Positions 32,905 through 64,000 of a stretch of DNA of 64,000 nucleotides are shown here, piece after piece. This DNA is from a virus. The stretch's first letter is position 1. Each line of letters opens with the position of its first letter. The stretch is from IMG/VR virus record IMGVR_UViG_3300010883_000013, positions 20,944-84,943 of that record; one strand, written 5' to 3'. The notes under the pieces are model-generated. The model did no database searches and had not been told where the DNA came from. It saw nothing but the letters and a program-made list of their open reading frames with translations. The translations under genes were made by a program, and so were the position numbers.

Positions 32905-33195
32905 CTATTCCCCACACCATATTTTACATTGAGATATGGTTTTGGTTTCATCTTTCCATGAATCTGGTAAGGTTTTAGTAAACCATTCTCCATTAATGAT
33001 ATCTTTCATATCATTGGTATGTATATTGTACTTTTCTTTGTTATCATTATATTCTTGCATAACCACCTCGTTGTTGGTTCTATCCTTTTGCTTTAGTTGC
33101 CAATCTTTGTTGGCAAGGTAACAACAAGGTAATACTTGACCATCTGGATTAACAAGTATTCTATTATCCTCTAACCACTTACACTTTATAACCAT
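32905..33195 (-). CDS. Stand-alone SPASM-like iron-sulfur domain protein
   Basis: Encodes 96 residues consisting only of what looks like a radical SAM C-terminal auxiliary cluster domain: KCKWLEDNRILVNPDGQVLP followed by CCYLANKD, with a terminal cluster ISQCKIWCGE. There is no radical SAM core. The gene directly follows a core-only radical SAM gene and overlaps its end by 17 bases with a shift of frame, so the two halves are made as separate but coupled chains. The same split occurs again at 35028/34682, which argues against a sequencing error. Confidence 0.7.
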   Translation of the reverse strand: MVIKCKWLEDNRILVNPDGQVLPCCYLANKDWQLKQKDRTNNEVVMQEYNDNKEKYNIHTNDMKDIINGEWFTKTLPDSWKDETKTISQCKIWCGE

Positions 33196-33856
33196 CAAGT
33201 ATCCTACTTTGTTCTAACTTTTGAGCATTACCCAATTCATCTGTAAAGTTAAATACTGCGCCCTTTTCCCATCGATCCGAAGGAGTAAACTCAATTGTGC
33301 TTGCTCCATGAGAACGCACCAACTCTTCTATTTGTTCAAGGTAGTCTTCGTTGTGTTTAAATACGATTGTACGTACTCTAGGTTTAGATCGTGTTTGTGA
33401 TATAGATTCCATATTAGCTAATACCTTTTTAAGGTCAGTATTTCTTCTATAGTGAGAATGCATCTTCTGGTCTATGCCATCAACAGCAAAGGTTGCGTGT
33501 AGCCTTCTGCCACCAATTATTCCTAAATTCCACCACCATTCTTCATCTCTTATACTTCCGTTAGTGTCTATGCTAATGGTGGCATTGCTGTTGTCAATAA
33601 TATATTGTATCATGCCCAACAGTTCTCTATTCATTACAGGATCGCCCCAAGTTCCACAGAACTCAAAGGAGTGATATCGAACTCTAGGTTTATCTAAATT
33701 ATAAGCCTTCTTAAAGGTTTCAAGATTCCATTGAATCAGAGGCAACCAATTTACTTTCCCTAGACCGTTAGGATCAGTTCTATGACACTGAGGACAGGCG
33801 GCATTGCAGTATGTCGATATGTCTAAGAATACGCTAAGGCCATGGGACTTATACAT
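33179..33856 (-). CDS. Radical SAM core protein (no SPASM domain)
   Basis: Encodes 225 residues with the cluster motif C17-x3-C21-x2-C24 (CNAACPQC). The next strand has FEFCGTWGDPVMN in place of GGEP, followed by TISIDTNGS and LHATFAVDGID, all normal for peptide-modifying radical SAM enzymes. The protein stops about where the core ends; its auxiliary cluster domain is the next gene. The start overlaps the previous radical SAM gene by eight bases. The substrate is unknown; neighbours suggest a sugar or small peptide. Confidence 0.85.
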   Translation of the reverse strand: MYKSHGLSVFLDISTYCNAACPQCHRTDPNGLGKVNWLPLIQWNLETFKKAYNLDKPRVRYHSFEFCGTWGDPVMNRELLGMIQYIIDNSNATISIDTNGSIRDEEWWWNLGIIGGRRLHATFAVDGIDQKMHSHYRRNTDLKKVLANMESISQTRSKPRVRTIVFKHNEDYLEQIEELVRSHGASTIEFTPSDRWEKGAVFNFTDELGNAQKLEQSRILDGYKV

Positions 33857-34682
33857 TCCTCATCTCATATTCGTTTAACATTTCTAATACCTTGACTGCC
33901 CTATAATGTCCTGTTGCCCCCAAATGCTCGGTACAATTAACGCAATACTTTTCATACTTAAACAACTTAAACGTCATCATCTTATGCAAGTTATCCTCGG
34001 TCACATCAAAGTGCCTAGACCCATTAATGAACTTCTTACTACAGTGTCGTATCTTCTTTATCTCAAAGTCAATCACAGGGACTGATGGGAACATAGAACA
34101 CATCTTCCTGTCTTCAACGGCGGCTTGTGATGTCGCATCATAGTCGGGGGATCTTGAATTGAACGGTTTTAATATAGTTGATGCGTGATCAATCTCTGTT
34201 AAATCGTGGTTCTCTCTATACTTGAAGTAGTTGGGAGTTTGAATTACGAGATTGTAGTTGTTGCATTCATTAGGCTGAATAAAAGGATAGTTACCTAGCT
34301 TTTCAATTCTATCTTCATGAAAGTCCAATACTAGATGCTCCATGTAAATGATATCTGGATCCTCAAGAATGTGTGGATAGAACTTTCTAATTAAAGAGTT
34401 TGATAGAACTGATATTATGAAGTTAGGATACTTACGGATTTCTGCAATGACTTCGTCAAGGTTCTTAATAAGTCCGGGCTCACCACCCAACAGATTTATC
34501 TTAGTGGGAAACGGAGCAAGGCCATCTAAACATGTTCTCAGGAACTCCATATCAACATGAAGATTGCGCATCTGTAGTGTCCACGCCGTGCAATAATGGC
34601 ACGATTTGTTACACGACTTACTTAGGTAGAAATCCACAGACTTGTAGTTACTACCATACAGATGCTTTGTGCCTAATTTCAT
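33849..34682 (-). CDS. Radical SAM protein with C-terminal cysteines
   Basis: Encodes 277 residues. Cluster motif C24-x3-C28-x2-C31 (CNKSCHYC) and GGEP at 66-69 (INLLGGEPGL) show a complete radical SAM barrel start. The C-terminal region has further cysteines (RHCSKKF, then YCVNCTEHLG) that could hold an auxiliary cluster. It starts as TAATG directly at the stop of the stand-alone SPASM gene upstream. Its place between two core/SPASM pairs suggests that three radical SAM reactions belong to one pathway. Confidence 0.87.
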   Translation of the reverse strand: MKLGTKHLYGSNYKSVDFYLSKSCNKSCHYCTAWTLQMRNLHVDMEFLRTCLDGLAPFPTKINLLGGEPGLIKNLDEVIAEIRKYPNFIISVLSNSLIRKFYPHILEDPDIIYMEHLVLDFHEDRIEKLGNYPFIQPNECNNYNLVIQTPNYFKYRENHDLTEIDHASTILKPFNSRSPDYDATSQAAVEDRKMCSMFPSVPVIDFEIKKIRHCSKKFINGSRHFDVTEDNLHKMMTFKLFKYEKYCVNCTEHLGATGHYRAVKVLEMLNEYEMRNV

Positions 34683-35038
34683 TAGGTGTGTTTACCCTTT
34701 TTCACTTCCCCAGTTTCGGTATCTATAAACAACTCTGCTTTATGTTGTGGAGATTCTCTCTTTTTACATATAGTATAACACACATCAAAGACATTATCGC
34801 CTTTTTCTAAGTTCTCTGCAAATTCAATCCACTCGTCTTGTAGGAAGATTTCTTCAACACTATCGTAATCATTAATGTTAGAAACAGCCACTAGATTCTT
34901 ATAGACAGGATCTCTCCTCACTCTATCGGTATCAGCCCAACAGCATGGAATGACTTCTCCCCTATTGGTTAAGCCAAAAGCCTCTTGCTTACCATTCATA
35001 CACTTAGGATCTATTTCAACATTATCTTTATTTTTCAT
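34682..35038 (-). CDS. Second stand-alone SPASM-like protein
   Basis: Encodes 118 residues without a radical SAM core. EIDPKCMNGKQEAFGLTNRG is followed by EVIPCCWADTD, the same x-G-x-V/E-x-P-C-C-x layout as in the protein at 32905, and a later pair of cysteines (FDVCYTICKKR, about 85-95). It overlaps the end of the core-only gene at 35028 by 11 bases. The C-terminal 25 residues are charged and probably disordered. Confidence 0.7.
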   Translation of the reverse strand: MKNKDNVEIDPKCMNGKQEAFGLTNRGEVIPCCWADTDRVRRDPVYKNLVAVSNINDYDSVEEIFLQDEWIEFAENLEKGDNVFDVCYTICKKRESPQHKAELFIDTETGEVKKGKHT

Positions 35039-35708
35039 TTTTCACAATCCTATCATTCTTTTTGTTAACGTCTTCGCTATACAAATCTAATCTCATAGCA
35101 GAGTTCTTAGGCTTTAACGGATCATCATGACTTCTCCACCGTGAAGATATGAGAGTCATAAACTCTACATCAATAGCCTTTGCCATTTTTAAAGCATCCT
35201 GTATGTGGTTCTCGTTATAACTGAATACGATGTACTGCCATACTGGTTTTGATACCAAGATACCTCTAGCAACTTCCATCATCCTATATATCTTTTCACC
35301 GTCTTGATTGATCCGATACATATTACTCTCTTCTGGCAATCCATCAATACCAAATATCCACCTAGCTTTGGGATTAGCGGCAAATGCCTTTGGATACCAT
35401 TTCTCAGGCTTTGCTCCCGATGCGTGATGAACACTCACACTACGTTTCATAACGGCAGTATGTTCAAGGATCTCAATAAATTTAGGGTGATGTACTGGAT
35501 CAGATACCTGTCCACAGAAGTTCAGATGTAGGAAGTGATCAGCTAACTTCTTAAAGTTATCAAGCGAAATGTCTTCGCCAGGAACTTTTATTCCATGGCG
35601 GATAAATGAACTCCACCGTTGACAACAAAGACACTCAAGGGGGCACCTATGAGTAATGTCTAAATTCATCTTCTTTCTAGAAAACATACTGTGCTGATCA
35701 GGTCTCAT
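35028..35708 (-). CDS. Radical SAM core protein (partner of the SPASM gene next to it)
   Basis: Encodes 226 residues. The cluster motif is C22-x3-C26-x2-C29 (CPLECLCC); a GGEP-equivalent LNFCGQVSDPVHHP and WIFGIDGLPEES follow, matching the layout of the protein at 33179 (FCGTWGDPV and FAVDGID). The two are therefore probably paralogues, each with its own detached SPASM partner. The frame ends soon after the barrel. Overlaps the upstream unknown gene by 11 bases. Confidence 0.82.
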   Translation of the reverse strand: MRPDQHSMFSRKKMNLDITHRCPLECLCCQRWSSFIRHGIKVPGEDISLDNFKKLADHFLHLNFCGQVSDPVHHPKFIEILEHTAVMKRSVSVHHASGAKPEKWYPKAFAANPKARWIFGIDGLPEESNMYRINQDGEKIYRMMEVARGILVSKPVWQYIVFSYNENHIQDALKMAKAIDVEFMTLISSRWRSHDDPLKPKNSAMRLDLYSEDVNKKNDRIVKNEK

Positions 35709-40770: not shown

Positions 40771-41715
40771 ATGATTAAAAAAGCAGTGATAGAGATATGT
40801 GGCTCGTGCAACTACAGTTGTACGTTCTGCCCACACTCTTTTGACGATGGTAGAGAGAAGTCCTTTAAAAGGATGATGTCATATCAACAGTTCATTAATA
40901 CCTTAGATCAATTGGTTGATATTGGCGAGTGTGAGGAGATCTATCTTGAGGGTTCGGGAGAACCTACCATGAACAAAAGATTACCAGACTTTGTTAAGGC
41001 TGGATCTGATCGTGGGTTTAAGATGTCGTTCATCACTAATGGCTTTTGGTTTAAGAACGATTTAATGAAAAAGACTATTGATGCGGGTATGCACTTTGCA
41101 CGTGTCTCAGTCACTGGTTACGATCAGAAAACCTACGAAGAGAATATGAGCAAAGATGCTTTCTATCAGGTAATGGACAATGCCAATGCCGCAATAGAAT
41201 ATGGTGGAAACCTTGGATCTTATTCACTCATCCTAGACAACAATAACATAGCAGAAGAAGTACGTCAATACCGTGAGAATTGGATTAATCACGTTCCTGG
41301 TATTAAAGCGTCGATTTGGAAGATGCACAATTGGTCGGGACAGTTGGGTGTTGATTGGCGTGAGGGTAAGAAGAAGCGCAGTTGTGGCAGACCATTCTCG
41401 CCAGATCTCATTGTAAGAGCAGGGGGGAATGATAAAAAGACAGGTGCGGTTGTACCTTGTTGTATGGTTCTAGGTCAAGATAGTAAAGCGGTTCTTGGTC
41501 ATCTATCCGAAGAGTCTATCATGGATATTTGGCATGGAGAGAAGTATAATGAATTAAGAAGAGCGCACGAGTTCCATGACTTCGACTCTATAGAATACTG
41601 TAAGAACTGTGACATGTTATATGATGCACCTGATGCTTTGGTGTGGTCTAACTTTGATGCTGATTACAATACACTAACTGGCTCAACTTTCACAATGGAG
41701 AAATATAGAATATGA
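40771..41715 (+). CDS. Radical SAM protein with SPASM domain
   Basis: Encodes 314 residues. Core motif C13-x3-C17-x2-C20 (CNYSCTFC), GSGEP at 61-65 (a GGEP equivalent), SFITNGF and VSVTGYDQKTYE. The C-terminal SPASM part has cysteines at RSCGRPF, AVVPCCMVLGQDS and YCKNCDMLY, a full set for auxiliary clusters. Unlike the split pairs on the other strand this is a single chain. Overlaps the next gene by four bases. Likely modifies a peptide or protein, but no short precursor gene is adjacent. Confidence 0.9.
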   Translation: MIKKAVIEICGSCNYSCTFCPHSFDDGREKSFKRMMSYQQFINTLDQLVDIGECEEIYLEGSGEPTMNKRLPDFVKAGSDRGFKMSFITNGFWFKNDLMKKTIDAGMHFARVSVTGYDQKTYEENMSKDAFYQVMDNANAAIEYGGNLGSYSLILDNNNIAEEVRQYRENWINHVPGIKASIWKMHNWSGQLGVDWREGKKKRSCGRPFSPDLIVRAGGNDKKTGAVVPCCMVLGQDSKAVLGHLSEESIMDIWHGEKYNELRRAHEFHDFDSIEYCKNCDMLYDAPDALVWSNFDADYNTLTGSTFTMEKYRI

Positions 41716-52533: not shown

Positions 52534-53607
52534 ATGGCGGCAATTAATTTCCCATCATCGCCATCGAATGGCGCAACCCACACCGCTAACAATGTCACGT
52601 GGACATTTGAAAGTGCAAAAGGTGTGTGGAGAGCCACTACCTTTACCGATGCTCCAACTGGCCCAAAGGGACAAAAGGGCGAAAAAGGACAAAAAGGACA
52701 GACTGGAGACACTGGCGCAAAAGGTCAAAAAGGCGAGATCGGACAAAAAGGCGAAGTTGGCGTTAAAGGTCAAAAGGGTCAAAAAGGTGAAGTTGGACTT
52801 ACTGGAGATAAGGGTCAAAAAGGACAAAAGGGCGAAGTTGGACTTACTGGTGAAAAAGGTCAAAAAGGTCAAAAAGGCGAAGTTGGTGTAACTGGAGCAA
52901 AAGGTCAAAAAGGCGAAGTTGGTGTAACTGGAGCAAAAGGACAAAAGGGAGAAGTTGGAGCCACAGGATCTAAAGGACAAAAAGGTGAGATTGGTCAGTT
53001 CGGTGGTGGTAACCTTGATATCACCAACGGTGGTCTTTTCTCCAATGCGTCATCTAACTGGACAGGTGATCCGGGCACAAAAGGTAAAATTCAGTACCAC
53101 TCAAATAGATGGTATATTGTTGCAGACGAATCATCAGACAGAATTGTTCAGTTTAGAAGAAATGGTACAGATACATCATATATTGCTAATGATGGTACAT
53201 TTAATGGTACAGCAACGTCTGCAAACTGGTCGGATTTAGCGGAGAAATATTTAGCCGATAGAGGATATGAACATGGAGATCTGTTGGCTGTTGGTGGCGA
53301 AAAAGAGGTAACTCTATACAAAAAGGGTATGGCTATCGCTGGCATTATCTCTACACGTCCGGGTGTTCGAATGAACGTTAATGAAGATAACATGGAGGAT
53401 CCTCTATGGCCTTTCATTGCGCTTAAAGGACGTATCCCTTGTAAGATAAATGGTACTGCTCAAAAAGGCGACTATATAGTAGCAGATGATAATGGTAAAT
53501 GTAAAGCACTTCCAGCTGATACGACTGCCGCAATGCGCATGAACTTCTTGAACTTTGTGGGTGTGGCACTAGAGGATGGTGAAGGGCTAGTTGAGGTTAA
53601 AGTATAA
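52534..53607 (+). CDS. Collagen-like fibre protein with peptidase-G2-like C-terminal domain
   Basis: Encodes 357 residues. Residues 1-41 form a short adaptor (NGATHTANNVTWTFESAKGV). Residues 43-156 are a collagen-like rod of exactly 38 triplets, with only one proline (first triplet). A beta linker leads to a C-terminal domain (about 230-357) with DLAEKYLADRGYEHGDLLAV, MAIAGIISTRPGVRMNV and ALKGRIPCKI, which resembles the self-cleaving or chaperone-like Peptidase_G2 ends of phage tail proteins. A candidate distal tail fibre. It ends one base before the first Cys/His-tailed gene. Confidence 0.78.
   Translation: MAAINFPSSPSNGATHTANNVTWTFESAKGVWRATTFTDAPTGPKGQKGEKGQKGQTGDTGAKGQKGEIGQKGEVGVKGQKGQKGEVGLTGDKGQKGQKGEVGLTGEKGQKGQKGEVGVTGAKGQKGEVGVTGAKGQKGEVGATGSKGQKGEIGQFGGGNLDITNGGLFSNASSNWTGDPGTKGKIQYHSNRWYIVADESSDRIVQFRRNGTDTSYIANDGTFNGTATSANWSDLAEKYLADRGYEHGDLLAVGGEKEVTLYKKGMAIAGIISTRPGVRMNVNEDNMEDPLWPFIALKGRIPCKINGTAQKGDYIVADDNGKCKALPADTTAAMRMNFLNFVGVALEDGEGLVEVKV
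52660..53001 (+). repeat. Collagen-like Gly-X-Y coding repeat (second rod)
   Basis: 38 uninterrupted Gly-X-Y triplets. Most belong to a 15-residue higher-order unit (GQK-GQK-GEV-GLT-GDK and variants). Lys occupies the Y place in 22 of 38 triplets and never the X place. Ends at GQF before a Gly-rich break. Confidence 0.9.
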
Positions 53608-53994
53608 ATGCCAACCTATGCACAAAATAACACTAGTTTACAGGCACAGGCTGGAAGCCAGTTAAGGACGTTTGATAAAACGATGACGTTTACTGTAACT
53701 GCATATACATTACAAACAGTGTCGCAGACTCAAGCGGGACCGCAAAGCTCGGCTGGCTTTAACCAACGCTTTGAATATACAGGTGCGGCTGACTCAACTT
53801 ATAATAACGATTTGGATGGTGGAATATACACAGGAAGTCGAATGTACAGTCAAGATGTTATCGACTCAATTAATAGTGTTATGCAAAGAACAGTAGATCA
53901 GGTTGAATCTCGTATCACTGACAGATCCATTTCAGCATTGTTATGTCATAGCTCTTGTCACACTAGTTGTCACACATCAAGAGGTCGTAGATAA
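53608..53994 (+). CDS. Cys/His/Ser-tailed 128-residue protein, copy 1 (candidate modification substrate)
   Basis: Encodes 128 residues. The first 112 form a domain with LRTFDKTMTFTVTAY (19-33), RFEYTGAADS and GSRMYSQDVID, then a helix RTVDQVESRITDRSISALL. The last 16 residues are CHSSCHTSCHTSRGRR: three copies of C-H-S/T-S and a basic end. The gene directly abuts the collagen-like fibre gene and overlaps its own paralogue. I interpret it as the substrate of the radical SAM enzymes downstream, with a long leader/carrier domain and a C-terminal core. The repeated H-x-S recalls the His-Xaa-Ser (Hxs) radical-SAM system. A plain virion protein with a metal-binding tail is the alternative. Confidence 0.75.
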   Translation: MPTYAQNNTSLQAQAGSQLRTFDKTMTFTVTAYTLQTVSQTQAGPQSSAGFNQRFEYTGAADSTYNNDLDGGIYTGSRMYSQDVIDSINSVMQRTVDQVESRITDRSISALLCHSSCHTSCHTSRGRR

Positions 53995-54380
53995 TGGGCA
54001 ATTTAACCAGAGATAGTATAGATAGCTACATGCAAACTTACGCAGGTGGTAAGTTAAGAACGTTTGACAAAACTATTACTATAACAACTACAGCATATCA
54101 GAATAACAATCCCACTGCTATGGGTGGAACAGGATCTAATACTACGACACATAGGTTCGAATATACAGGTGCGGCTGACTCTCTATTTGATAACTATATT
54201 GATGCTGGAGTCTCCGCAGGTAGTAGGATATATTCACAAGACATCGTAGACACATTAGAGGACGGAGTGCGAAGAACCGTAGACCTCATTGAAGATAGAC
54301 TTACTAACAGATCTATCTCAGCAGTATTATGCCATTCAAGCTGTCACACCAGCTGTCATACATCAAGAGGAAGACGATAA
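53994..54380 (+). CDS. Cys/His/Ser-tailed 128-residue protein, copy 2 (candidate modification substrate)
   Basis: Encodes 128 residues, same length and layout as copy 1: LRTFDKTITITTTAY, RFEYTGAADSLFDNYID, GSRIYSQDIVDTL, RRTVDLIEDRLTNRSISAVL and the identical tail CHSSCHTSCHTSRGRR. The domain has diverged in roughly half its positions, but the last 16 residues have not, while their codons have (9 of 17 codons from the preceding Leu onward differ, all synonymous). Starts at the last base of copy 1's stop (TAATG) and is followed one base after its own stop by the first radical SAM gene. Strong selection on the tail implies that it is the functional part. Confidence 0.75.
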   Translation: MGNLTRDSIDSYMQTYAGGKLRTFDKTITITTTAYQNNNPTAMGGTGSNTTTHRFEYTGAADSLFDNYIDAGVSAGSRIYSQDIVDTLEDGVRRTVDLIEDRLTNRSISAVLCHSSCHTSCHTSRGRR

Positions 54381-54381
54381 C

Positions 54382-55560
54382 ATGACAATGCAACAATCAT
54401 ATTGTAAGCAGATGAGATACTCAGGACCCGAAAGTCTGGCACCATCTGATGCAACAAAGTTCGATGTTCTTATTCAGATGGAAGTTCTGGCTGGATGTGA
54501 ACAGGGCTGTCTTGGATGTTTCGTTGACAAAGCAATTGATCCTGTAAGCAATCAACAGATCATTGATCGTGCTAAGGAACTTGCTGATGGTGTATTACGT
54601 GTGGGTGGTAACCTAAGAGAGTTTGTTATCGGACCTACAGATCTATTTTCTGCTAAGAATACAAAAGAAGTATTGACAAACCCAACTGTTCAAGCTATAA
54701 TGAGAGAACACACTAATGCACGTATTGCGTCTCCAGCTAAGTTCGACAATGCTTCAATGGAAAAGGTCAGAGAGATCTTTGCTATTCTGGATGACCTAGA
54801 TGCGTATAGACGTGACATGGTTATCGAATTCATTATGCCGATTGGTCGTATTAACGAGATGTTGGATGATGACGATTACTATAACAGAGTTATGGAGAAA
54901 ATAGAGTTCTTTAAGAACGAAACTCCAAAGATGATGGATTGGTCTTGGACATTACAGGCTTCTAACGTTGTCGGTAAGCAGATTGACAAAGAGAAATACA
55001 ATAGGCTGATTGATCGTTCTGTAAACGACTTCGGCACTATTATGGAAATGAACCCTGCATTCGCTAGGGCACCTAATCAAATCATTCAACGTAACAACTT
55101 GTTTGCGTGGAATAAGTTCCTTGAGTCGGTTATTGATGAGAACAATGCTAGTGAGACTGTTATGTCTATGGCTAATCTCTACTGTAACTCAATCAACTTT
55201 GTGGGCATTACTATTGTTCCAGGAGAGAACGGACCTACGACACACTTGAATGTAATGCTTCACGAACAAGCGTTCTTTATAACTAATAAGAACCTAGACG
55301 TAACAGGACTTACATTCGAAGAGATCTTACAACGTAAGAACGAACTGATTACAAAGGGTATAAATAAGTCTAGTAAGGTAAAAGATTGTGCAGACTGTCA
55401 GTTTGCTATGGCTTGTGCAAGTAGATTGGTATTCGAGGCTCAAGATAGTCTCAATATTGATGGGTGTGTATTACCTAAAGAAACATTGAAACACTATAAT
55501 CCATTCGACTTTACATGGAATGATGATGCAACTAAATACAAAATGAAAGACGGAGCGTAA
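54382..55560 (+). CDS. Radical SAM protein A, IGPTD family
   Basis: Encodes 392 residues from the ATG at 54382 just after the second tailed gene (longer frames run through that gene). Core motif C39-x3-C43-x2-C46 in CEQGCLGCF, IGPTD at 83-87 where other radical SAM proteins have GGEP, and a C-terminal C336-x2-C339-x5-C345-x16-C362 set likely to hold an auxiliary cluster. The first member of five paralogues. It differs most from the others in the region before the auxiliary cysteines (MLHEQAFFITN in place of PF-x-YEN). Expected to act on the Cys/His-tailed proteins that immediately precede it; this is inference from position. Confidence 0.88.
   Translation: MTMQQSYCKQMRYSGPESLAPSDATKFDVLIQMEVLAGCEQGCLGCFVDKAIDPVSNQQIIDRAKELADGVLRVGGNLREFVIGPTDLFSAKNTKEVLTNPTVQAIMREHTNARIASPAKFDNASMEKVREIFAILDDLDAYRRDMVIEFIMPIGRINEMLDDDDYYNRVMEKIEFFKNETPKMMDWSWTLQASNVVGKQIDKEKYNRLIDRSVNDFGTIMEMNPAFARAPNQIIQRNNLFAWNKFLESVIDENNASETVMSMANLYCNSINFVGITIVPGENGPTTHLNVMLHEQAFFITNKNLDVTGLTFEEILQRKNELITKGINKSSKVKDCADCQFAMACASRLVFEAQDSLNIDGCVLPKETLKHYNPFDFTWNDDATKYKMKDGA
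55359..55366 (+). promoter_or_regulatory. Intragenic TATAAATA octamer
   Basis: Exact TATAAATA inside the 3' part of radical SAM gene A, about 200 bases before the next gene. It could boost the later genes of the array or be a chance match. Confidence 0.35.
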
Positions 55561-55562
55561 CC

Positions 55563-56666
55563 ATGATCGGTCAAAATCTCTATTACTTAAACAACTCAAA
55601 GTATATCTCAACTATTAACAACTTGGGAACAGTGTGTTTCGAGTTAAACTCGTATTATCACACAGCAACCCCACGTAACATCGTGATTGTACACCGATCT
55701 AATGGTGATCAATTATTGGCGGCTCAGTATGAGTCTATTGCTAATACGATTAGAGCAAATGCTAACGATTTGATTAGTTATATGGATTACGCTGATGTAG
55801 ATGATATCGACTATATTCAAAACAGTGATAAGGTTATCATTCTATTTTCTACTGTTGAAGATATGATCACAGTTTTTGCACGTTACACATCAGGTCTTAT
55901 TACGGCATCTGGTTTCTATGACTCGTCTACTAACGTTAATGCAATGGTTGGAGCATTCCTTGAGAAGATCTTCTCTATGGATGTTATGCTCACTATGGTG
56001 CTTGACAATGAAACTATTTTAGATGTATCAAATCATGTAGACACACTATTCTCCACAGACTCAGGTGGTGGGGCAGTAACTCCTTATACGGTGATCTATC
56101 AGAATGGCAAGAACTTCAGTTATGACCTACTGTTCTTCTTAAACGATTACTATACAAATAATTCAGTACAACTACTAATCAAAGAGAAGTTTACAGTACA
56201 CCAATCCACAATGGCACAAGATGTGATGGAACACTTTACATCAAGACGCCACTACTTGGCTTATATTTTAGCAGTCATCGATTGGATGAATGCCAATGTA
56301 TCACGTAATGCAGAATATGCAACCAACAAGACTACGTGGATCAGATCCTGTTATGTTACTAAGGCTAATGCTGGAAACTATACTGCCGCTTTCTATCAAC
56401 TAGAAGAGTTGTGGAACTTGGTTAAAGACGATACTGCATTCCTTGCGGCTCACCAATCTAAGGCAGATAGTGACGCAGATGGTTGGGAATATATGGATCT
56501 ATACACAGAGTTTAAGAATGTGTTTCCTATCGTGCGCAAGGTATTGCAGAATGACTTTGACATGGACAATCTAACCGCAGATTTGAAGCTGATAAATACA
56601 GATGTGCAGTTCTTCTCTAAGAGACAAAACCGCATTCCATATCTTATCCACAAGTACCCATTGTAA
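55563..56666 (+). CDS. Unknown protein of the radical SAM array, 367 residues
   Basis: Encodes 367 residues, mostly helical in the second half, with no cysteine cluster motif (scattered Cys only). The N-terminal half has phrases such as NIVIVHRSNGDQLLAAQYES and DKVIILFSTVEDMITVFA that look like an alpha/beta fold. It starts two bases after radical SAM gene A and ends 13 bases before the next unknown. I do not recognise a family. Likely roles by position are a precursor-binding partner, scaffold or second enzyme of the modification pathway. Confidence 0.7.
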   Translation: MIGQNLYYLNNSKYISTINNLGTVCFELNSYYHTATPRNIVIVHRSNGDQLLAAQYESIANTIRANANDLISYMDYADVDDIDYIQNSDKVIILFSTVEDMITVFARYTSGLITASGFYDSSTNVNAMVGAFLEKIFSMDVMLTMVLDNETILDVSNHVDTLFSTDSGGGAVTPYTVIYQNGKNFSYDLLFFLNDYYTNNSVQLLIKEKFTVHQSTMAQDVMEHFTSRRHYLAYILAVIDWMNANVSRNAEYATNKTTWIRSCYVTKANAGNYTAAFYQLEELWNLVKDDTAFLAAHQSKADSDADGWEYMDLYTEFKNVFPIVRKVLQNDFDMDNLTADLKLINTDVQFFSKRQNRIPYLIHKYPL

Positions 56667-56679
56667 GGAATACTATATT

Positions 56680-57438
56680 ATGACAACTCCAGACGAGAGT
56701 ACGTGTTATGAGTTACCACTATCTCCTCAACACTTAGTACAGATCTATAAAGACAAGAGTGAACTTGAAGAATACGTTCTTTGGGTTGATTATGCTAAGA
56801 GTAAAGAGAAGTTGTCTGCACAGCACATTATCATCTATTTGGCTAACACTAACTTTAAGACAACGTTCTCTTCTATTGACGAAGACTTGATTAAAGCGTA
56901 TATCAAATCAGACTTTATGGTTGACTGTCCTCTATTGGCTAGGATCATTGTTCTTATTATTAAGTTCAAATATAGACATGACATTGGTGAACAAGAGAGC
57001 CAACTATTATATCTGTTCCCACCAAAACTTATCGATAAGTTTATTGAAGATAATGAACAATTGGTTGACGATTTAATCGCCACAGTTGCATCTTCAGTAC
57101 CATTTGCCCTAACTAAACTATACGATGGGCTTGACGATGATATGAAGCTAACCGAAAAAAATCTAAAAGAACTGGTTGAAGACATCAAGGTAGTTGATAA
57201 ACCAGCTACGTGTGGACCTAATATTGCCAGACTTCTCACTACAGGCTATGATGCGCTTCTACTAATCTTGAGTAAAAACGGATTGTCGATTGAATATAAT
57301 AAACAAGTGTTTAACGACTCCCCCAAATATTTCGGCAAAGATCTCTATCATATTATGTGTGAGACTAAGATTACGGATCAGATCGTATCATTCTTTCCCG
57401 ACGATTTCATGTTGATTCTAGATGATAACAAAGCTTAA
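56680..57438 (+). CDS. Unknown helical protein of the radical SAM array, 252 residues
   Basis: Encodes 252 residues from the ATG at 56680 with AAGGAA upstream; the longer frame starts inside the previous gene. It appears almost entirely helical and acidic, with hydrophobic helices (LLARIIVLIIKFKYRHDIGE near 86-105) and paired acidic patches. No catalytic motif. Overlaps radical SAM gene B by 17 bases, which supports co-expression. Could be a substrate-binding or assembly factor; function unknown. Confidence 0.7.
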   Translation: MTTPDESTCYELPLSPQHLVQIYKDKSELEEYVLWVDYAKSKEKLSAQHIIIYLANTNFKTTFSSIDEDLIKAYIKSDFMVDCPLLARIIVLIIKFKYRHDIGEQESQLLYLFPPKLIDKFIEDNEQLVDDLIATVASSVPFALTKLYDGLDDDMKLTEKNLKELVEDIKVVDKPATCGPNIARLLTTGYDALLLILSKNGLSIEYNKQVFNDSPKYFGKDLYHIMCETKITDQIVSFFPDDFMLILDDNKA

Positions 57439-58447
57439 TGCAACAGAAGCAGGGTACTATCGTTACGTTCATGGCATAAGCCCTGTTAATACCGATTTCC
57501 TACGCACAGAGATCAACTTGGATATTCTCCATGGTTGTGATCAGATGTGTCCCGGATGCTTTATCCCAAGAAAGAACTTGACATCACCTGATCACATGGC
57601 TACTCTATACGATGAGTTGTGTAAGGGACAGTTCTATCCAGATGAAATTACTATAGGTCCAACTGACATCTTTGATGCTCAGAACTTTGATGAGGTGATG
57701 ACACACCCATCGATGACAGACCTGTATGCTATAAGTGGTGTCGGATTTACATCTACACTATTACAAGACCCAAAGGTTGTCAAGCCTAAACTTGATATGA
57801 TTTGGCAGATCTATCGTAACATCAATAGAATTCCAGATATCGACTTTAAGATTGTGTTAGATGTTGAGGCGTATCTTGATGATGACCTTGACCCCAACTT
57901 CCTTGAAAACATAAAGATGTTTACCATTGGATCTGTTCAGTTCAGAGTTAACTACACTCCTGATTTGTTTGACAGAATAGGATATAATGATCTGTGTGCC
58001 AAAGTCAAGGAAGACTTTAACGCACCCATAGTCATCGCACCTTCTTTCTTGACAGACAAGAATGCACGTGGTAAGGTCAATAAGTTTCTTGATATGTTTA
58101 GGGCAGATCTGCGTAAGCAGAAGATAAATGATGAGTGGAGGAACTTATACACATTCTTTGATGCTAGGTTTAATGGATATGGCTGTCAGAACTATAGTTT
58201 CTACAACGGCAAATTATACATCAATCCATTTTTATATGACGCAATCATTCAGAGAACACCTGAGTTTCAAACTACAATGGATCAGGAATGGTTGGGCACT
58301 AACCTAGAGTATGCAAAGACAGTAGACGATTGTAACACATGCGAATACCTAATGAGTTGCGCAGAAAGAAACATACACGTGTATATGAAGTCAAGGAAGT
58401 TGAACACTTGTGTTGCCTTGAAAGAATATATGCATGCCGTTAATTAA
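57422..58447 (+). CDS. Radical SAM protein B, IGPTD family
   Basis: Encodes 341 residues. C39-x3-C43-x2-C46 (CDQMCPGCF), IGPTD at 78-82, a pre-cluster strand NGKLYINPFLYD and C304-x2-C307-x5-C313-x16-C330. The sequence DILHGCDQMCPGCFIPRK is close to gene C (DILDGCHHKCPGCFVHRR), so B to D look like recent paralogues. Overlaps the helical unknown before and gene C after (14 bases). Confidence 0.88.
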   Translation: MITKLNATEAGYYRYVHGISPVNTDFLRTEINLDILHGCDQMCPGCFIPRKNLTSPDHMATLYDELCKGQFYPDEITIGPTDIFDAQNFDEVMTHPSMTDLYAISGVGFTSTLLQDPKVVKPKLDMIWQIYRNINRIPDIDFKIVLDVEAYLDDDLDPNFLENIKMFTIGSVQFRVNYTPDLFDRIGYNDLCAKVKEDFNAPIVIAPSFLTDKNARGKVNKFLDMFRADLRKQKINDEWRNLYTFFDARFNGYGCQNYSFYNGKLYINPFLYDAIIQRTPEFQTTMDQEWLGTNLEYAKTVDDCNTCEYLMSCAERNIHVYMKSRKLNTCVALKEYMHAVN

Positions 58448-59597
58448 GAACAACTTATATTACGAGCTAACCACAGAGACGCAAACTAAACCAGTCTCGG
58501 CGGTTAAACTTCAGCTTGATATCCTAGATGGTTGTCATCACAAATGTCCGGGATGTTTTGTGCATCGCAGAGGTAATGCTAGTGATGAACATCAGATCCA
58601 TAAAGCCAAAGACTTCATACGAGACATAACTGATAGAGGCATCTTGGTTGACGAGATCCTTATCGGACCTACAGACTTTCTTGCGTCCGAAAACTTCTAT
58701 GAGGTCATGCCATCTCTAGTCGATATCATTAATGAGAACTCACCCATTCTTGCATTTGTCAGCACACTGATTGATGGGGATCTTCCACGATGGGTTGCTT
58801 TCATAACAAATAATATTAACATAGATACTGAGATTGAAATTGGTATCGCAACGAATGTTAACAAGTTCTTTGATGAGGATTATGTACAGCATATTCACAA
58901 GATGTTGGAGTACATTGATAAAAACCTAGAACATGAAGTGACATATACGTTTGTGGTCAATATACGTGATTATGGCCTAGACTACGTTAAACTGCATAAA
59001 AGTGCAATAGAACGCTTTAAAACGATATTAGACTTTGTACCGTCTGTTTCACGTTCTCACAAGCCTAAACTAATATTAGATACATTAGACAAGTTTAATG
59101 ACTTCTTTAACGAGCTAAGTGCTTATAAAGAAACAGAATTAAATAACATAATGGTAGACCACTCACACGGTGGCATGAACTATACCGTACTAAACTATAA
59201 AAAGGGCGAATGGTTCATTTCGCCGTTTATGTACGAAAACATGGCATTGTACCATGAGATGTTTAAAGTGGATAACTTTGACGATGTGCTTCCTATTGTA
59301 CAATCTCAGTTGGAAAGGGTCAAGGGCACAGAGTGCGAAACTTGTCCCTTGATGATGTCTTGTTACAATAGAAAGATTATTCTACTCAGAGATTACCTTG
59401 GAGTTGATCGTTGTATTGCTCCTAAGCAGAATATGATGGAACATATACATAACTATAATGCACCTGCTCAGAAGATGTATCAGTGGGATGACTATTCTGT
59501 TGAAAACGATAAGAAGGGTTATCGTAAGAGGTTTCTTGTTACAACAGATGACGATCCAGAACTAGAACGAATTAAGGACATCTCCTATGTTAAATAA
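58434..59597 (+). CDS. Radical SAM protein C, IGPTD family
   Basis: Encodes 387 residues. C34-x3-C38-x2-C41 (CHHKCPGCF), IGPTD at 77-81, GEWFISPFMYENMALYHEMF before the auxiliary set C301-x2-C304-x5-C310-x16-C327. A C-terminal extension of about 60 residues after the last cysteine (WDDYSVENDKKGYRKRF) is similar in place to that of A and is absent from B and E. Overlaps gene D by 11 bases. Confidence 0.88.
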   Translation: MPLIKNNLYYELTTETQTKPVSAVKLQLDILDGCHHKCPGCFVHRRGNASDEHQIHKAKDFIRDITDRGILVDEILIGPTDFLASENFYEVMPSLVDIINENSPILAFVSTLIDGDLPRWVAFITNNINIDTEIEIGIATNVNKFFDEDYVQHIHKMLEYIDKNLEHEVTYTFVVNIRDYGLDYVKLHKSAIERFKTILDFVPSVSRSHKPKLILDTLDKFNDFFNELSAYKETELNNIMVDHSHGGMNYTVLNYKKGEWFISPFMYENMALYHEMFKVDNFDDVLPIVQSQLERVKGTECETCPLMMSCYNRKIILLRDYLGVDRCIAPKQNMMEHIHNYNAPAQKMYQWDDYSVENDKKGYRKRFLVTTDDDPELERIKDISYVK

Positions 59598-60720
59598 TAG
59601 TTGGAAAGACATTGTTAAGCACGGTGGTGTGGGAGAAGAGTTTACTTCAGTATCCTCAATGACGCAGTACAAGATCCAAGTTACTTTAGAATTACTTGAA
59701 GGGTGCTCTTACATGTGTCCTGGTTGTTTTGTTAAACGTAGAGGTAATTGGAATCCCAAGTCAATTAAGATGTTTCACAATCTGGCATACGAATTACATG
59801 GTAGAACTGATGTCGTGTTAGACGATATTGTTATCGGACCTACAGACTTCTATGGTGCAGAAAACCTAGAAGAAATCATACACAATGCCAGATTATCTGA
59901 TGCCATCTCTATGATACCAGAAGGTAATAGAAACATTCAACATAACTGTTCTATCATGGGGTCTCTATCGGAAGATGATATTCTAGGTAAGATCAAGTCT
60001 ATCGAAAAGTCTCCTCTTGGTAAGGTTGTTGAGTCTTGGGATGTGCAGATTGCTTTAGATCTTGTGCGTGTATTGGATGATAAAAGATACAGGAAAGCAT
60101 TGAGAAACAGAGTGATGAACTTCAAAGAGAGTTCGTTGGACTTTGAGATCTCTATGGCAACTAACATTGTAGAGGGTATCGAAGACAGGCTATACGAAGC
60201 TATCGACTACATACGTGAAACCTACGACACGGTCATTGAAATCTTACCCTCTGTTGTCAGATCCTTTAACCATTCTACCAAGCATGGAGACAAACTATTC
60301 GCTTGGAATGATATGTTGACAAACTTGTCTAGTGATGTCAATCGTTTTAAGAACAAGTTTCACTTCTTACAGGGGGATCTATCTCACAAAGCATTTCACT
60401 ATGCGGTGGTGAACATCCACAACGGCAAACTATATGCGTCACCATTCATCTATGAGAATGCTCAGATCTATAAAGATGACTTCGAGATCACCACACATAC
60501 AGTAGAAGGTATCTTAAATTACAAACACCAAGTCGTTACAGATCAGATAATAAATAGTTCTAATAAAGAATGCGGAACGTGTAAGTACCTCAACGTGTGC
60601 TCCAACAGATTGATACCCAAAGTTATGGATACGATGTTTGAGGGAAGATCTGAATGTATATTAAACAAAGATGTTATTGCTCTATTCGATAACGAGGATT
60701 ACCATGGGAATAGTTACTAA
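59587..60720 (+). CDS. Radical SAM protein D, IGPTD family
   Basis: Encodes 377 residues. C40-x3-C44-x2-C47 (CSYMCPGCF), IGPTD at 83-87, NGKLYASPFIYENAQIYKDD and C329-x2-C332-x5-C338-x18-C357 (two residues longer than in the others). DLSHKAFHYAVVN and the equivalent DHSHGGMNYTVLN in C suggest a conserved His in the active-site end of the barrel. Overlaps gene E by 17 bases. Confidence 0.88.
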   Translation: MLNNSWKDIVKHGGVGEEFTSVSSMTQYKIQVTLELLEGCSYMCPGCFVKRRGNWNPKSIKMFHNLAYELHGRTDVVLDDIVIGPTDFYGAENLEEIIHNARLSDAISMIPEGNRNIQHNCSIMGSLSEDDILGKIKSIEKSPLGKVVESWDVQIALDLVRVLDDKRYRKALRNRVMNFKESSLDFEISMATNIVEGIEDRLYEAIDYIRETYDTVIEILPSVVRSFNHSTKHGDKLFAWNDMLTNLSSDVNRFKNKFHFLQGDLSHKAFHYAVVNIHNGKLYASPFIYENAQIYKDDFEITTHTVEGILNYKHQVVTDQIINSSNKECGTCKYLNVCSNRLIPKVMDTMFEGRSECILNKDVIALFDNEDYHGNSY

Positions 60721-61726
60721 CAACAAGAAAGAAGCTCAGGCTGATGCAGACTTTGATCTATCCTTTAACGAAGGACACGAGATCAAGGTTATATTCAATG
60801 CTGAAGTTCTGTCAGGATGTGAGTTCAAGTGTGTGGGTTGTTTTGTAAACAAACTAGGCACTAACATGGGATCCTACGAAAGATTAAACAATGCTATTGA
60901 CTTGTTCAATAATAATGGGTATAGGGTTTCCACTATCAATATCGGACCAACTGATCTATTCGGCAACAACAACGTCATAGAGTTATTGCGAGATGAAACA
61001 TTTCGAGAGTGTTTGAGTAAGGTTTCTACTATACAATTCGTGACGACTCTAACCAACATCTCAACGGAGGTTATCGAATTACTTAACAGCATACCCAAAA
61101 TAGATGGGTTCATGTACGATGCTAACATAGCAATCGATCCTAAAAAGTTCCCCCATGGATACAAAGATATGATCGATAAGCTAAACCTATTCGATGACGA
61201 TCTGAATTACTATCTTGTAATGAATATGGGTAATGACGATAAGACCAATGCCAAAGTCATAGAGTTCTCAGATATTGCTGACGATGAGTTTGACACGATC
61301 TTAACTCTTAACCCATCGTTTCTTAGAGCGGATAAGTTTAAGGTACAGAAACATCTAATAGACAAGTGGAAGAAGCTAGATGATTGGGCAGAAGACGCTT
61401 TTCCCTCTACTATCATCGATCAAGCACAGGGCGGATCCTTAGAACTTAACTACACATACTGTAATGGCAACTTCTTCTGGACACCATTCGTCTACGATAT
61501 TGTTAAGATAGGCACAGACAAGTTTAAAGTACATGATGAGAATGATATTGAATCTTGGATAAGTGCCAAAAGCGACAACTTTGGGTCGCAATTAGCATAC
61601 ACTGCCAATACAGATAGTTGTTCTGGATGTGCTCATATGATGACGTGTATCGATAAGGGTGTGCAATCCTACATGGAGCATCACGGTGTTACGGAGTGTT
61701 TGTTCCCACGTAATCAAATCCTGTGA
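60704..61726 (+). CDS. Radical SAM protein E, IGPTD family
   Basis: Encodes 340 residues from the ATG at 60704 (the frame opens earlier inside gene D without a good start). C39-x3-C43-x2-C46 (CEFKCVGCF), IGPTD at 80-84 (INIGPTDLFGNNN), NGNFFWTPFVYD and C306-x2-C309-x5-C315-x16-C332. Last gene of the rightward array. Its final 38 bases overlap the end of the radical SAM gene on the opposite strand, so the two arrays converge with no space for a terminator. Confidence 0.88.
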   Translation: MGIVTNNKKEAQADADFDLSFNEGHEIKVIFNAEVLSGCEFKCVGCFVNKLGTNMGSYERLNNAIDLFNNNGYRVSTINIGPTDLFGNNNVIELLRDETFRECLSKVSTIQFVTTLTNISTEVIELLNSIPKIDGFMYDANIAIDPKKFPHGYKDMIDKLNLFDDDLNYYLVMNMGNDDKTNAKVIEFSDIADDEFDTILTLNPSFLRADKFKVQKHLIDKWKKLDDWAEDAFPSTIIDQAQGGSLELNYTYCNGNFFWTPFVYDIVKIGTDKFKVHDENDIESWISAKSDNFGSQLAYTANTDSCSGCAHMMTCIDKGVQSYMEHHGVTECLFPRNQIL

Positions 61727-62771
61727 TTTGGTTTTGTCCTGTCTTGTCCATGTAGTTAAACCACATGCGCATTATACAGTCGGGCAGATCTCGTTCACGG
61801 TTCTTCCAATCCCATTGTGTATAACATCTAAAGCCACACTTGTTGTACCACTTACATGACAAGCAACCATTCTCATCCATATAAGCTTGCATCATACCAG
61901 CATTATCTTTAGGCTCATACTTCGTGTTGAAGTCACGTTGGTCATATCTATCCCATCTACAGTTTGATGTAGAGTTATCAGGAAAGATTGTAACCTTGTT
62001 AAGAGCCAAGCAATGCATATGATTTGTTTCGTTATAGATCAGATCCTTGATAGGATTGATGTCTGGATAGTTATGATACACAAACTTTAGGAACTCAAGA
62101 TACTCACTATCTGATGGGATCATATAGTCATAACCACGATCAGGAATGTAATCATCAAAGTAGAAGTTATCAAACTTATTATACAGATAGTGAAAGTACT
62201 CGTCCTCATCTGCCATAAACTTTTTAATAGAAATAGTGGTTGCAACCATATTAATAGATGTGATATAATCAGCAAAGTATTCTATGTTCTTGCCATAAGG
62301 TCCTTTGACAGGTCTACCATCAAAGTCATAAGAACAGATAATATAGGATGGAATGTCTATTGCATTCAAATCATCAAGTAGTTTTTGAACTCTCTCACGT
62401 TTACTAAACTGAAAGGATGTTACCCAAACTACTTTAATGTTCTGCTTATGTTCATCATAGATCTTCTTAATCTCAACTAAGAAGTCGTAGTAGACCTCAT
62501 AAGCCCACTCAGATATTCGGTCTTGAAACAATTCTCCACCAAGCATATTGATCTGAATAACGTCTGCACGGTTCTTCATCTTAATAACATGCTCTTCTAC
62601 TAGAGGGATCTTGGAGAAGATCTCTTCACGAGACAAGCCTACTGTAGACTTCTTGTCGTGGTGACAAAAAGAACAGTTGAGGTGACAGTTCTCAAAGAGT
62701 GTCATCTCAATCTCGGCTATGTCTGGACGTTTAGATTCCAGTAGCTGTTTGGTGAAGTCAAAGTTGTCCAA
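61689..62771 (-). CDS. Radical SAM/SPASM-like protein, different family
   Basis: Encodes 360 residues. C29-x3-C33-x2-C36 (CHLNCSFCHHDKK), a normal GGE at 78-80 (INMLGGELF) and a C-terminal set around SNCRWDRYD and CLSCKWYNKCGFRCYTQWDW. This is the anaerobic-sulfatase-maturase/SPASM look, unlike the IGPTD paralogues. Preceded on the same strand by a small unknown gene and the partial radical SAM gene at the window edge, forming a second array that converges on the first. Confidence 0.88.
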   Translation of the reverse strand: MDNFDFTKQLLESKRPDIAEIEMTLFENCHLNCSFCHHDKKSTVGLSREEIFSKIPLVEEHVIKMKNRADVIQINMLGGELFQDRISEWAYEVYYDFLVEIKKIYDEHKQNIKVVWVTSFQFSKRERVQKLLDDLNAIDIPSYIICSYDFDGRPVKGPYGKNIEYFADYITSINMVATTISIKKFMADEDEYFHYLYNKFDNFYFDDYIPDRGYDYMIPSDSEYLEFLKFVYHNYPDINPIKDLIYNETNHMHCLALNKVTIFPDNSTSNCRWDRYDQRDFNTKYEPKDNAGMMQAYMDENGCLSCKWYNKCGFRCYTQWDWKNRERDLPDCIMRMWFNYMDKTGQNQITGFDYVGTNTP

Positions 62772-63117
62772 TCATGAATTCCTCTTGGTAATACTCATAG
62801 ACATCTGGAACCATACCATTAGTATTATCAAAATTAACTTTAGAAAGGATCTCATCATAGATCTCTTTACTTCTCTCATATGGTAGGAAGTGTGGATCGT
62901 CTGGTAGTAATTCGTTATAGTTTAGTACATCATAGAACTGCTCACCAAAGTCTTCGGCTATCCAATTGGCATAGCAGATTGCAACGAAGAACGACTTCGC
63001 TGGGTAGATCCACTGATCCACTCTCTTATCGAAGTGCATCAAAGCATCTTCTACAATAAATTCTGGCCTATTCAATACATCAACATCCGTCAAATCGTCA
63101 CGGTGGTTTGTTGTCAT
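62758..63117 (-). CDS. Small acidic protein between two radical SAM genes
   Basis: Encodes 119 residues from the ATG at 63117, just after the stop of the upstream gene (a start at 63156 within that gene is also possible). Acidic and aromatic, with HDxD-like MHFDKRVDQWIYPAKSFFVA and EDFGEQFYDVLNYNELLPDD. It overlaps the next gene by 14 bases. It has no Cys motif and no glycine-rich tail, so it does not look like a classical RiPP precursor; a leader-binding or accessory protein is possible. Confidence 0.6.
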   Translation of the reverse strand: MTTNHRDDLTDVDVLNRPEFIVEDALMHFDKRVDQWIYPAKSFFVAICYANWIAEDFGEQFYDVLNYNELLPDDPHFLPYERSKEIYDEILSKVNFDNTNGMVPDVYEYYQEEFMIGQL

Positions 63118-63121
63118 ATGA

Positions 63122-64000
63122 TTATACGCCTTCTGTCTCGCTTTCCAATTTTCCATAGTAATCTAGTAATCCTTTATATCCATTGCAACTGTTGTCTAAA
63201 TCCAATACGTACCGATAGTGCTCGGTAAGACATGTACCGAAATAGGTACAGCTACGACAAATGTCGCTAAGATTATCAACAGCTTCGTTATCTGCCCATT
63301 GTTTATATTCATAATATGTGCTATACTCCTTGAAGTACTCTTTATCATGCTTATCAAACTCCAATACGCCAAACTTACCAGATGGTGTGATATAGACGTG
63401 GTCATTGGAAAAGGCATTGTACTCTTTATCTATACTTCTATAAATGTTGTGTATGTTTTGGAAGTCAAAGTTCTTCTTAGTCTTAGCCTCATCAAACCTA
63501 ATAACGAAGTCCTCAAAGTCTTTATGAGTAACATCAAATGCATTGGCTTGGTTGATAGAGTAAGGCTTGATCTCTACCGACTTGACATTAGAAACCATGT
63601 TAAGAGTGAAGATCATAAACTCCACATCCATCTTCAATACTTTAGGCGATGCAAGGATAAGGACAGCAAGATCCTTATTAGCATTCATCATGTTATTTAG
63701 AACAAACTGTTCTTTCTCTCTTGCGTGGAAGTCATAAGATACCGATAGGGTAACATCATCATCACGGAAGAAGTCTGGAAATGCTGACAGATTTGTGTTG
63801 ATGTGGATACTACCACCATAGTATCTCCTAATCACCTCTTTGATCGAATAATAATACTCTGGTGTTAGTAATCCAATCTCACCGCCATATAAATCAACAT
63901 GAGTTATAGGATCTGTTATTTGACCCATAGAATGTTGTAACCACATTGGGTTTATCTTGTGTCTATCATTTAACTGTTGCTTTGTCAAGTAACAAAAGTC
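63122..64000 (-). CDS. Radical SAM protein, N-terminus beyond the window edge
   Basis: The frame is open to the last base of the window. The first visible residues are DFCYLTKQQL, that is, the final Cys of a CxxxCxxC motif followed by an aromatic, so only a short N-terminal piece is missing. HVDLYGGEIGLL carries the GGE motif, SIHINTNLSAFPDFF and VTLSVSYDFH continue the barrel, and the C-terminus has RSCTYFGTCLTEHYRYVLDL and NSCNGYKGL, a C-x5-C-x(n)-C auxiliary set. An internal TTG at 63988 could be mistaken for a start. About 293 residues are visible. Confidence 0.85.
   Translation of the reverse strand, partial: DFCYLTKQQLNDRHKINPMWLQHSMGQITDPITHVDLYGGEIGLLTPEYYYSIKEVIRRYYGGSIHINTNLSAFPDFFRDDDVTLSVSYDFHAREKEQFVLNNMMNANKDLAVLILASPKVLKMDVEFMIFTLNMVSNVKSVEIKPYSINQANAFDVTHKDFEDFVIRFDEAKTKKNFDFQNIHNIYRSIDKEYNAFSNDHVYITPSGKFGVLEFDKHDKEYFKEYSTYYEYKQWADNEAVDNLSDICRSCTYFGTCLTEHYRYVLDLDNSCNGYKGLLDYYGKLESETEGV

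Follow-up and report, generated by a model that had tools for sequence, protein, structure and literature searches.

Radical S-adenosylmethionine (radical SAM) enzymes mature small peptides and enzyme cofactors. In the HxsABCD systems, repeated His-x-Ser units are associated with more than one radical SAM maturase. Triceptides contain a three-residue ring in which an aromatic-ring carbon is linked to the Cbeta of residue 3, an arrangement that H-x-S would fit. To our knowledge, no radical SAM-matured peptide has been described on a virion. The locus analysed here belongs to the virus record IMGVR_UViG_3300010883_000013 of IMG/VR, whose positions 20,944 to 84,943 form the window (64,000 nucleotides) to which the window coordinates below refer. 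It encodes two proteins ending in the same repetitive Cys-His tail, referred to as the tag, followed by an array of radical SAM genes. The proposed reading, to which a probability of about 80% is given, is that the tag proteins are parts of a virion fibre tip or adhesin and that their C-terminal tag would be rebuilt by radical SAM enzymes and oxygenases, stay attached and be displayed. It is based on the linkage of tag and enzymes, on the C-terminal position of the tag and on the neighbouring fibre genes.

The two tag proteins of the window, T1 (53608-53994, + strand; phrog_35144, 3.3e-9) and T2 (53994-54380, +), have 128 residues each and are 55% identical, and their genes overlap by one base. 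Their last 16 residues are identical, CHSSCHTSCHTSRGRR (53944-53991 and 54330-54377, both +). The underlying DNA differs in 9 of 16 codons and at 14 nucleotides, including AGC/TCA switches of serine codon class. Since the codons differ while the peptide is the same, the identity of the tags points to maintenance by selection on the peptide rather than to recent copying. The start codon of gene A at 54382 lies one base past the T2 stop codon and opens the series A (54382-55560), U1 (55563-56666), U2 (56680-57438), B (57422-58447), C (58434-59597), D (59587-60720) and E (60671-61726, whose true start may be later), all on the + strand. Successive spacings are +2, +13, -17, -14 and -11 nucleotides, and D and E overlap. 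Each of A to E contains CxxxCxxC and a C-terminal CxxC...C cluster (with CADCQFAMAC in A) and is recognized by the hidden Markov model (HMM) of the family called X5 below; C also matches PF04055 below the cut-off (6.5e-4). Directly upstream of T1 lies a collagen-like tail fibre gene (cluster c4; 52534-53607, +; PF01391, 3.5e-19; tail fibre PHROGs 6320 and 19602), as is the case before the tag genes of many other loci. The twin paralogues with the array one base behind them, the tight co-oriented packing and the position after a collagen-like fibre gene, all noticed in a preliminary description of the window, are thus confirmed.

The association of tag and enzymes was examined in both directions, with five enzyme families, X1 to X5, defined as HMMs from five seed sets. 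A DNA pattern for the tag, CHxSCHxSCHxxRG, was scanned in IMG/VR and matched at least 120 stretches; the 120 matches listed form the set. All 120 have an X-family radical SAM gene on their contig, 114 of them within the fetched stretch, and the remaining six contigs carry X4 elsewhere on the record. A tag open reading frame (ORF) was found in 118 of the 120, and R(G/S)RR is the ending of 149 of the 150 ORFs; the pattern fixed the codons for C, H, R, G and the Ser-type positions, so that invariance in this set is built in. X-family enzymes also accompany 15 of 16 RSRR-type stretches. The same pattern matched 15 stretches in 84,980 bacterial and archaeal genomes: 11 combine a tag ORF with an X-family enzyme, three have no such ORF and one encodes a 530-residue protein with CHET repeats and no X-family enzyme. 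In the reverse direction, the best 80 of 379 and the best 80 of 405 X4 relatives were fetched blind to the tag, as two sets overlapping in contigs. A CH tag lies within about 2.4 kb of X4 in 147 of these 160 loci. It follows X4 in 75 of 80 in the first set, the other five loci being truncated. In the second set, where two CH units sufficed for a tag, the count was 72 of 80; six loci are truncated, one (L333) is cut after another radical SAM gene and one (L338) runs off its contig. X4 also occurs in six cultured phages (7 of 50,697 records), all of which bear the tag: Burkholderia phages FLC6, FLC8 and SURPRISE13, Pseudomonas phage DT01, Agrobacterium phage Atu_ph07 and Sinorhizobium phage Phosso. 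A counterexample of the kind foreseen in the preliminary description, tag proteins without radical SAM neighbours, was sought from the tag and from X4 and did not appear.

As a control, stretches whose DNA encodes four or more CHxS-like units were collected, 74 in all. In seven of them an X-family enzyme was present, and in all seven the CH units belong to an ORF beside X4. The other 67 had none in the fetched stretch; among these, an ORF with three CH units is absent from 45 and present in 22, where it is mostly of low complexity. Two of the 22 contain plain CHTS-repeat ORFs of 70 residues (L224, 2265-2477; L231, 379-591), with N-terminal units and starting MPCVCHTSCHTSCHTSCHQ; the repeat may have arisen by chance, or the motif may serve another purpose there.

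The loci recovered through X4 give a fair sample of tag variation, with 109 distinct tag proteins. At least three CH units are present in 107 of the 109, the floor of two being a condition of the search. In 106 the protein ends directly on at least three units followed by RxRR (85) or by I/L (21), the latter forming a freshwater lineage with CHSNCHGSCHGS-I/L. Two others have two CH units and HSS before RNRR, and one breaks off within a Hint domain. In the 85 RxRR proteins, position 3 of the successive units is S in 76, 66 and 74 cases, the replacements being N, Q, A, K and V, and G, S, N or A stands between the last arginines. In locus L187, four CH units (residues 181-196) are followed by Peptidase_S74 (206-269, 1.5e-11). 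In L233, units 188-203 run into Vint (203-278, 5.5e-4), and Hom_end_hint matches the whole protein at 2e-15 (best stretch 349-387). Peptidase_S74 and Hint are self-cleaving modules, so that after cleavage the units would once more stand at a C-terminus or close to one. A Hint-like stretch was seen by eye in L190, without a Pfam Hint match. Much longer tags, of 13 and 14 CH units with VPV/VV linkers, are encoded in L124 (7832-8515) and L223 (7956-8660).

The bodies that precede the tag are diverse. When proteins ending in RGRR were kept, genome and cultured-phage loci included, 129 distinct full-length proteins fell into nine body groups (blastp, E 1e-3); the constancy of the ending among them comes from this selection. 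A common ancestry of the bodies from twin and single operons beyond the tag was considered and not found: tag-free profiles of the two largest groups show no homology that hhalign could detect (probability 4%, E 0.011; 0.2% and E 0.35 for the reversed control). Tag proteins span 124 to 309 residues. Two predicted models are folded in the body, with a mean predicted local distance difference test (pLDDT) of 79.6 for T2 and 86.8 for a protein from a single operon. For T2 there was no viral fold match at E<=0.001 and no chain of Z>=2 among the 343 PDB chains compared. The single-operon model had four viral fold matches at E<=0.001 (a 178-residue entry, an uncultured Caudovirales protein, A0A2L0UZF9 of Atu_ph07 at 1.4e-7 and Myoviridae ctijX18) and a top PDB Z of 2.4 among 515 chains. 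A tblastn search of T1 against phages gave nothing at E 10, although FLC6 and DT01 bear the tag, which a low-complexity filter may hide. T1, T2, U1 and U2 have no convincing relative in NCBIfam, Pfam or PDB. Among open-licence PubMed Central (PMC) papers, none was found with the letters of the tag, and none of the listed titles and abstract starts on phage, radical SAM, ribosomally synthesized and post-translationally modified peptide (RiPP), cyclophane or virion topics ties a tag to the enzymes.

In the phage lineages examined, the tag operon lies downstream of fibre or virion genes. By PHROG, the gene before the operon encodes a fibre, tail or virion structural protein in the window, L106, FLC6, Atu_ph07, L124 and L182. 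The L106 fibre has a sub-threshold match (2.1e-5) to Peptidase_G2, an autocleavage chaperone. Operons of the single type read fibre, cupin, X4, tag gene, c3, c5, X2, X3, X1 and c10, and also hold 2-oxoglutarate (2OG)-Fe oxygenases (c7, c9) and sometimes X5. The twin type, that of the window, reads fibre, two tag genes, X5, U1, U2 and further X5, and X2, c10, X1, X3, X4 and cupin are often encoded by the other strand. The fibre gene and U2 (cluster c3) are common to both. One contig, IMGVR_UViG_3300025138_000014 (L005/L084), carries a single and a twin system, separated by about 18 kb, and has X4 genes at 29 and 59 kb. In Atu_ph07, the tag protein is gp170 by the count of coding sequences (CDS) in MF403008, which agrees with the published numbers of tRNA nucleotidyltransferase (18), ribonucleotide reductase (123), head completion (125), sheath (132) and lysozyme (141). 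The passages on the virion of this phage state that most proteins identified by electrospray tandem mass spectrometry (ESI-MS/MS) are encoded in clusters CDS 31-76, 170-215 and 284-329 (PMC6102473). The tagged gp170 is the first gene of the second cluster, and from this boundary we infer that gp170 itself was detected in virions. The proposal of the preliminary description, a dedicated modification system for the tags, whose product would probably be carried on the virion, is supported by tag-enzyme linkage and fibre context.

The enzymes next to the tag belong to several families. In an alignment of 15 X4 sequences (A4), C13/C17/C20, C263, C302xxC305x5C311x3C315 and C325 are invariant. The C-terminal set matches the SPASM consensus, and on these motifs X4 is assigned to the radical SAM/SPASM peptide maturase superfamily. 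Residues 9-316 of DT01 X4 align to the anaerobic sulfatase-maturating enzyme (anSME) family at 1.2e-13. Its nearest families are anSME, YhhB, PapB and FxsB, and that of X3 is DynA, all far below family cut-offs. The solved structures closest to the X4 profile are 8vpo, 5wgg and 4k37 (an anSME). The cupin keeps HxD...H, c9 keeps WHxD...H...R and c7 corresponds to PF13759, so that all three look like Fe(II)/2OG oxygenases and are treated as putative. Some tag operons also contain cluster c15 (18 members, e.g. in L105, L116 and L087), of about 550 residues with TRGCPYxCxxC, a motif that we take to be the signature of cobalamin-type radical SAM enzymes and that suggests such an enzyme. One enzyme per repeat was considered as a rule and is ruled out by L223, which has 14 units and six radical SAM types, the same as DT01 with three units. 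This uncoupling fits several iterative enzymes, each of which would perform one step on every unit.

The window contains only a part of the system. Beyond the genes of the preliminary description, X2, a radical SAM/SPASM core enzyme (61689-62771, -; phrog_1802, 6.5e-19), with relatives in six cultured tailed phages (7 records), is followed by c10, a conserved 132-residue partner (62758-63156, -), and by the core radical SAM enzyme X1 (63122-63988, -), whose 5' end is cut by the window edge and which is complete (309 residues) in L001 and L410. Past the window end, a 159.9-kb contig encoding identical T2 and B continues with X3, X4, cupin and a 2OG-Fe oxygenase. Read together, window and contig give a full set of two tag proteins and nine radical SAM enzymes, along with two putative oxygenases and the three conserved but uncharacterized proteins U1, U2 and c10. 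The preliminary description had taken A to E as the maturases. They do belong to the system as X5 but are not its common core, because X4 is the commoner family (76 against 42 of the 120 listed stretches, a good number of which are short) and a scan with X4 finds the tag with no need of X5. U1 (cluster c8) takes the place that c5 has in single operons; its NCBIfam match to LicT (1.1e-4) is sub-threshold and no curated cut-off is reached. U2, whose start is uncertain (the ORF opens at 56602), adjoins the tag gene in both architectures. Its cluster c3 has 122 members, counting redundant contigs, and it may be a substrate adaptor. Elsewhere in the window, three ORFs at 33179-35708 (-) and one at 40771-41715 (+) are also radical SAM-like. 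They sit among genes that resemble, by eye, those for aminotransferases, carbamoyltransferases and PP-loop proteins and perhaps belong to another fibre or glycan pathway.

The preliminary description had called the system phage-encoded. It occurs in many large phages but is not restricted to them, as Pseudomonas megaplasmids have it too. X4 relatives were found in 136 of 72,556 plasmid records (E 1e-10), those listed being 23.9-26.8% identical. The plasmid tag protein has 124 residues, a signal-peptide-like start and the end CHNACHGACHGACHGSRGWR, and homologues occur in 129 records (128 Pseudomonas, 1 Stutzerimonas). Its gene follows an X4-like gene in the three loci inspected. In the two inspected at length, where the four-unit CHxA tag ends in RGWR (L413, 24511-24885, i.e. 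NZ_OL468012.1 100510-100884; L415, 17001-17375), it is surrounded by ten radical SAM genes; a 2OG-Fe oxygenase and a PEP-utilizing enzyme are encoded there as well, and prepilin and pilus genes adjoin. Even where identity over the whole protein is down to 56.5-59.7%, the tag varies little (CHNA/CHSA/CHTA; S or A before RGWR). The body is a different protein from those of the phages and is probably exported. Tag and enzymes next to a surface fibre thus recur in another type of element. On a Vibrio plasmid (L414, CP099927.1 201-212 kb), a prepilin gene has at least five radical SAM/SPASM genes next to it, and the 30 kb searched contain no CHxxCH pattern; this may be a related system with another substrate.

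In the mechanism proposed here, the tag protein would be a surface-fibre component of the virion, at the tip or as an adhesin. The substrate would be the very end of its C-terminus, as a rule three CHx(S/N/A) units followed by R-x-R-R, and the maturases the radical SAM/SPASM core X1-X4, the X5 copies and the putative Fe(II)/2OG oxygenases, which would work iteratively on each unit. The modified tag would remain covalently bound and be shown on the particle. Cys and His are near-constant and the third residue is small and variable, so that a Cys/His chemistry fits better than a Ser-specific one. With low confidence, a side-chain cross-link per unit may be suggested, for example a Cys thioether or a three-residue ring across His-x-Ser. 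Hydroxylation might be added to it, and the result would be a rigid and perhaps metal-binding tip in contact with the host envelope. A RiPP-like maturation whose product stays on the virion is the most likely general description. Only tentatively, and at somewhat less than even odds, can it be specified as a covalent non-proteinogenic prosthetic group, in which three or more CHx(S/N) units would be turned by several radical SAM enzymes and putative oxygenases into a rigid metal- or receptor-binding fibre tip touching the outer membrane, a virion-tethered metallophore-like RiPP with a megaplasmid equivalent at the pilus. Several observations weigh against the proposed reading. Modification of the tag, its display on the particle and its function are inferred from sequences and gene context. 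Position 3 of the unit is not always Ser, the third Cys is missing in two distinct proteins (three loci) and 21 of the 109 proteins end in I/L without RxRR, so that no single chemistry is fixed. The CHTS-repeat ORFs of L224 and L231 lack an X-family enzyme in the fetched stretch. Finally, the presumed detection of gp170 is read from a cluster boundary, and X4 (gp171) and the cupin (gp172) fall in the same published range.

Alternatively, the tag could bind metal as an unmodified C-terminus, and the radical SAM enzymes would act on the fibre body, on DNA or on a small molecule. Its most constant part, the Cys-His pairs (again with the preset two-unit floor), has the pattern of metal ligands, and its modification is predicted from genes. 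We nevertheless hold this to be unlikely: tag gene and X-family enzymes co-occur whichever is used as bait, across bodies with no detectable similarity apart from the tag, and also on plasmids, whose tag protein has a different and probably exported body. A small repeated core with many radical SAM enzymes, together with the signal-peptide-like start of the plasmid homologue, would also suit a tail cut off and released as a peptide toxin or signal. This is decidedly improbable, given the size of the tag proteins and the folded bodies of both predicted models, the location of their genes after fibre genes, the place of gp170 at the head of a published virion cluster and the clusters scanned, none of which gave a protease or exporter above cut-off. 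Kinship to HxsABCD, put forward in the preliminary description, is not supported and, as a divergent form, is very improbable, for all the H-x-S in most units and the several radical SAM genes. At E<=1, no Hxs model matches A to E or the window X2, and DT01 X1 has no match either; among the matches listed, DT01 X4, X3 and X2 reach 19.5-26.2 bits against HxsB (TIGR03978) and HxsC (TIGR03977), whose cut-offs are 370 and 267.9, and the weak matches over some enzymes of the system span 19.5-37.3 bits. By these scores the enzymes would fall outside both families. T1, T2 and three other phage tag proteins had no HxsA match, and U1 and U2 (E<=1) and one c3 and one c5 protein (E<=0.1) no HxsD match, in a library whose content of these two models was not checked. 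Moreover, the Ser is replaceable while CH is nearly constant.

If the virion-displayed, enzymatically rebuilt tag is real, it would be, as far as known, the first enzymatically elaborated peptide group of such a kind on a virus particle and a new route for a virus to widen its surface chemistry. A tag of 12-16 residues found across unrelated phages and plasmids, with up to ten radical SAM genes per locus, would constitute a new class of radical SAM-matured polypeptide. The radical SAM clusters of phage 332-Vera are described in passages of its report as highly unusual (PMC12390700); a function would be suggested for them, the likeness resting on the radical SAM cluster. The same holds for the radical SAM cluster with a type IV pilus noted in passages on the pBT2436-like and pQBR Pseudomonas megaplasmids (PMC7070040). 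The cultured phages Atu_ph07, FLC6, DT01 and Phosso make the system directly testable.

Compared with known systems, the megaplasmids have the same X4-tag gene order, a CHxA tag and an adjoining pilus operon; they differ from the phages by the 124-residue carrier with its signal-peptide-like start and by the RGWR end. The published megaplasmid cluster is likened to the plasmids studied here by its description, in passages that mention no tag (PMC7070040). Tail spikes with Peptidase_S74 resemble L187, where this domain stands shortly after the tag and cleavage would leave the tag near the fibre C-terminus, whereas most tag proteins have no chaperone domain and end on the tag. Thioether maturases such as PapB (2.2e-12 with DT01 X4) and SCIFF/CteB (5wgg, which we take to be CteB, at 5.5e-9 with the X4 profile) also act on Cys-rich repeats, but the tag has no Cys-x3-Asp pattern and its His is about as constant as its Cys. 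DT01 X4 scores 49.5, 44.1 and 42.4 bits with the cyclophane (triceptide-type) maturases YhhB, FxsB and AmcB, and X3 44.0 bits with DynA, against cut-offs of 370-450 bits; unlike in those systems, many enzymes would serve one substrate, itself the tail of a structural protein. HxsABCD shares repeated His-x-Ser units and several radical SAM genes with the present system, in which, by contrast, a Cys precedes each His, the tag is exactly C-terminal, oxygenases are included, radical SAM genes are more numerous (six in DT01, nine in the phage of the window) and the setting is a virion or a pilus.

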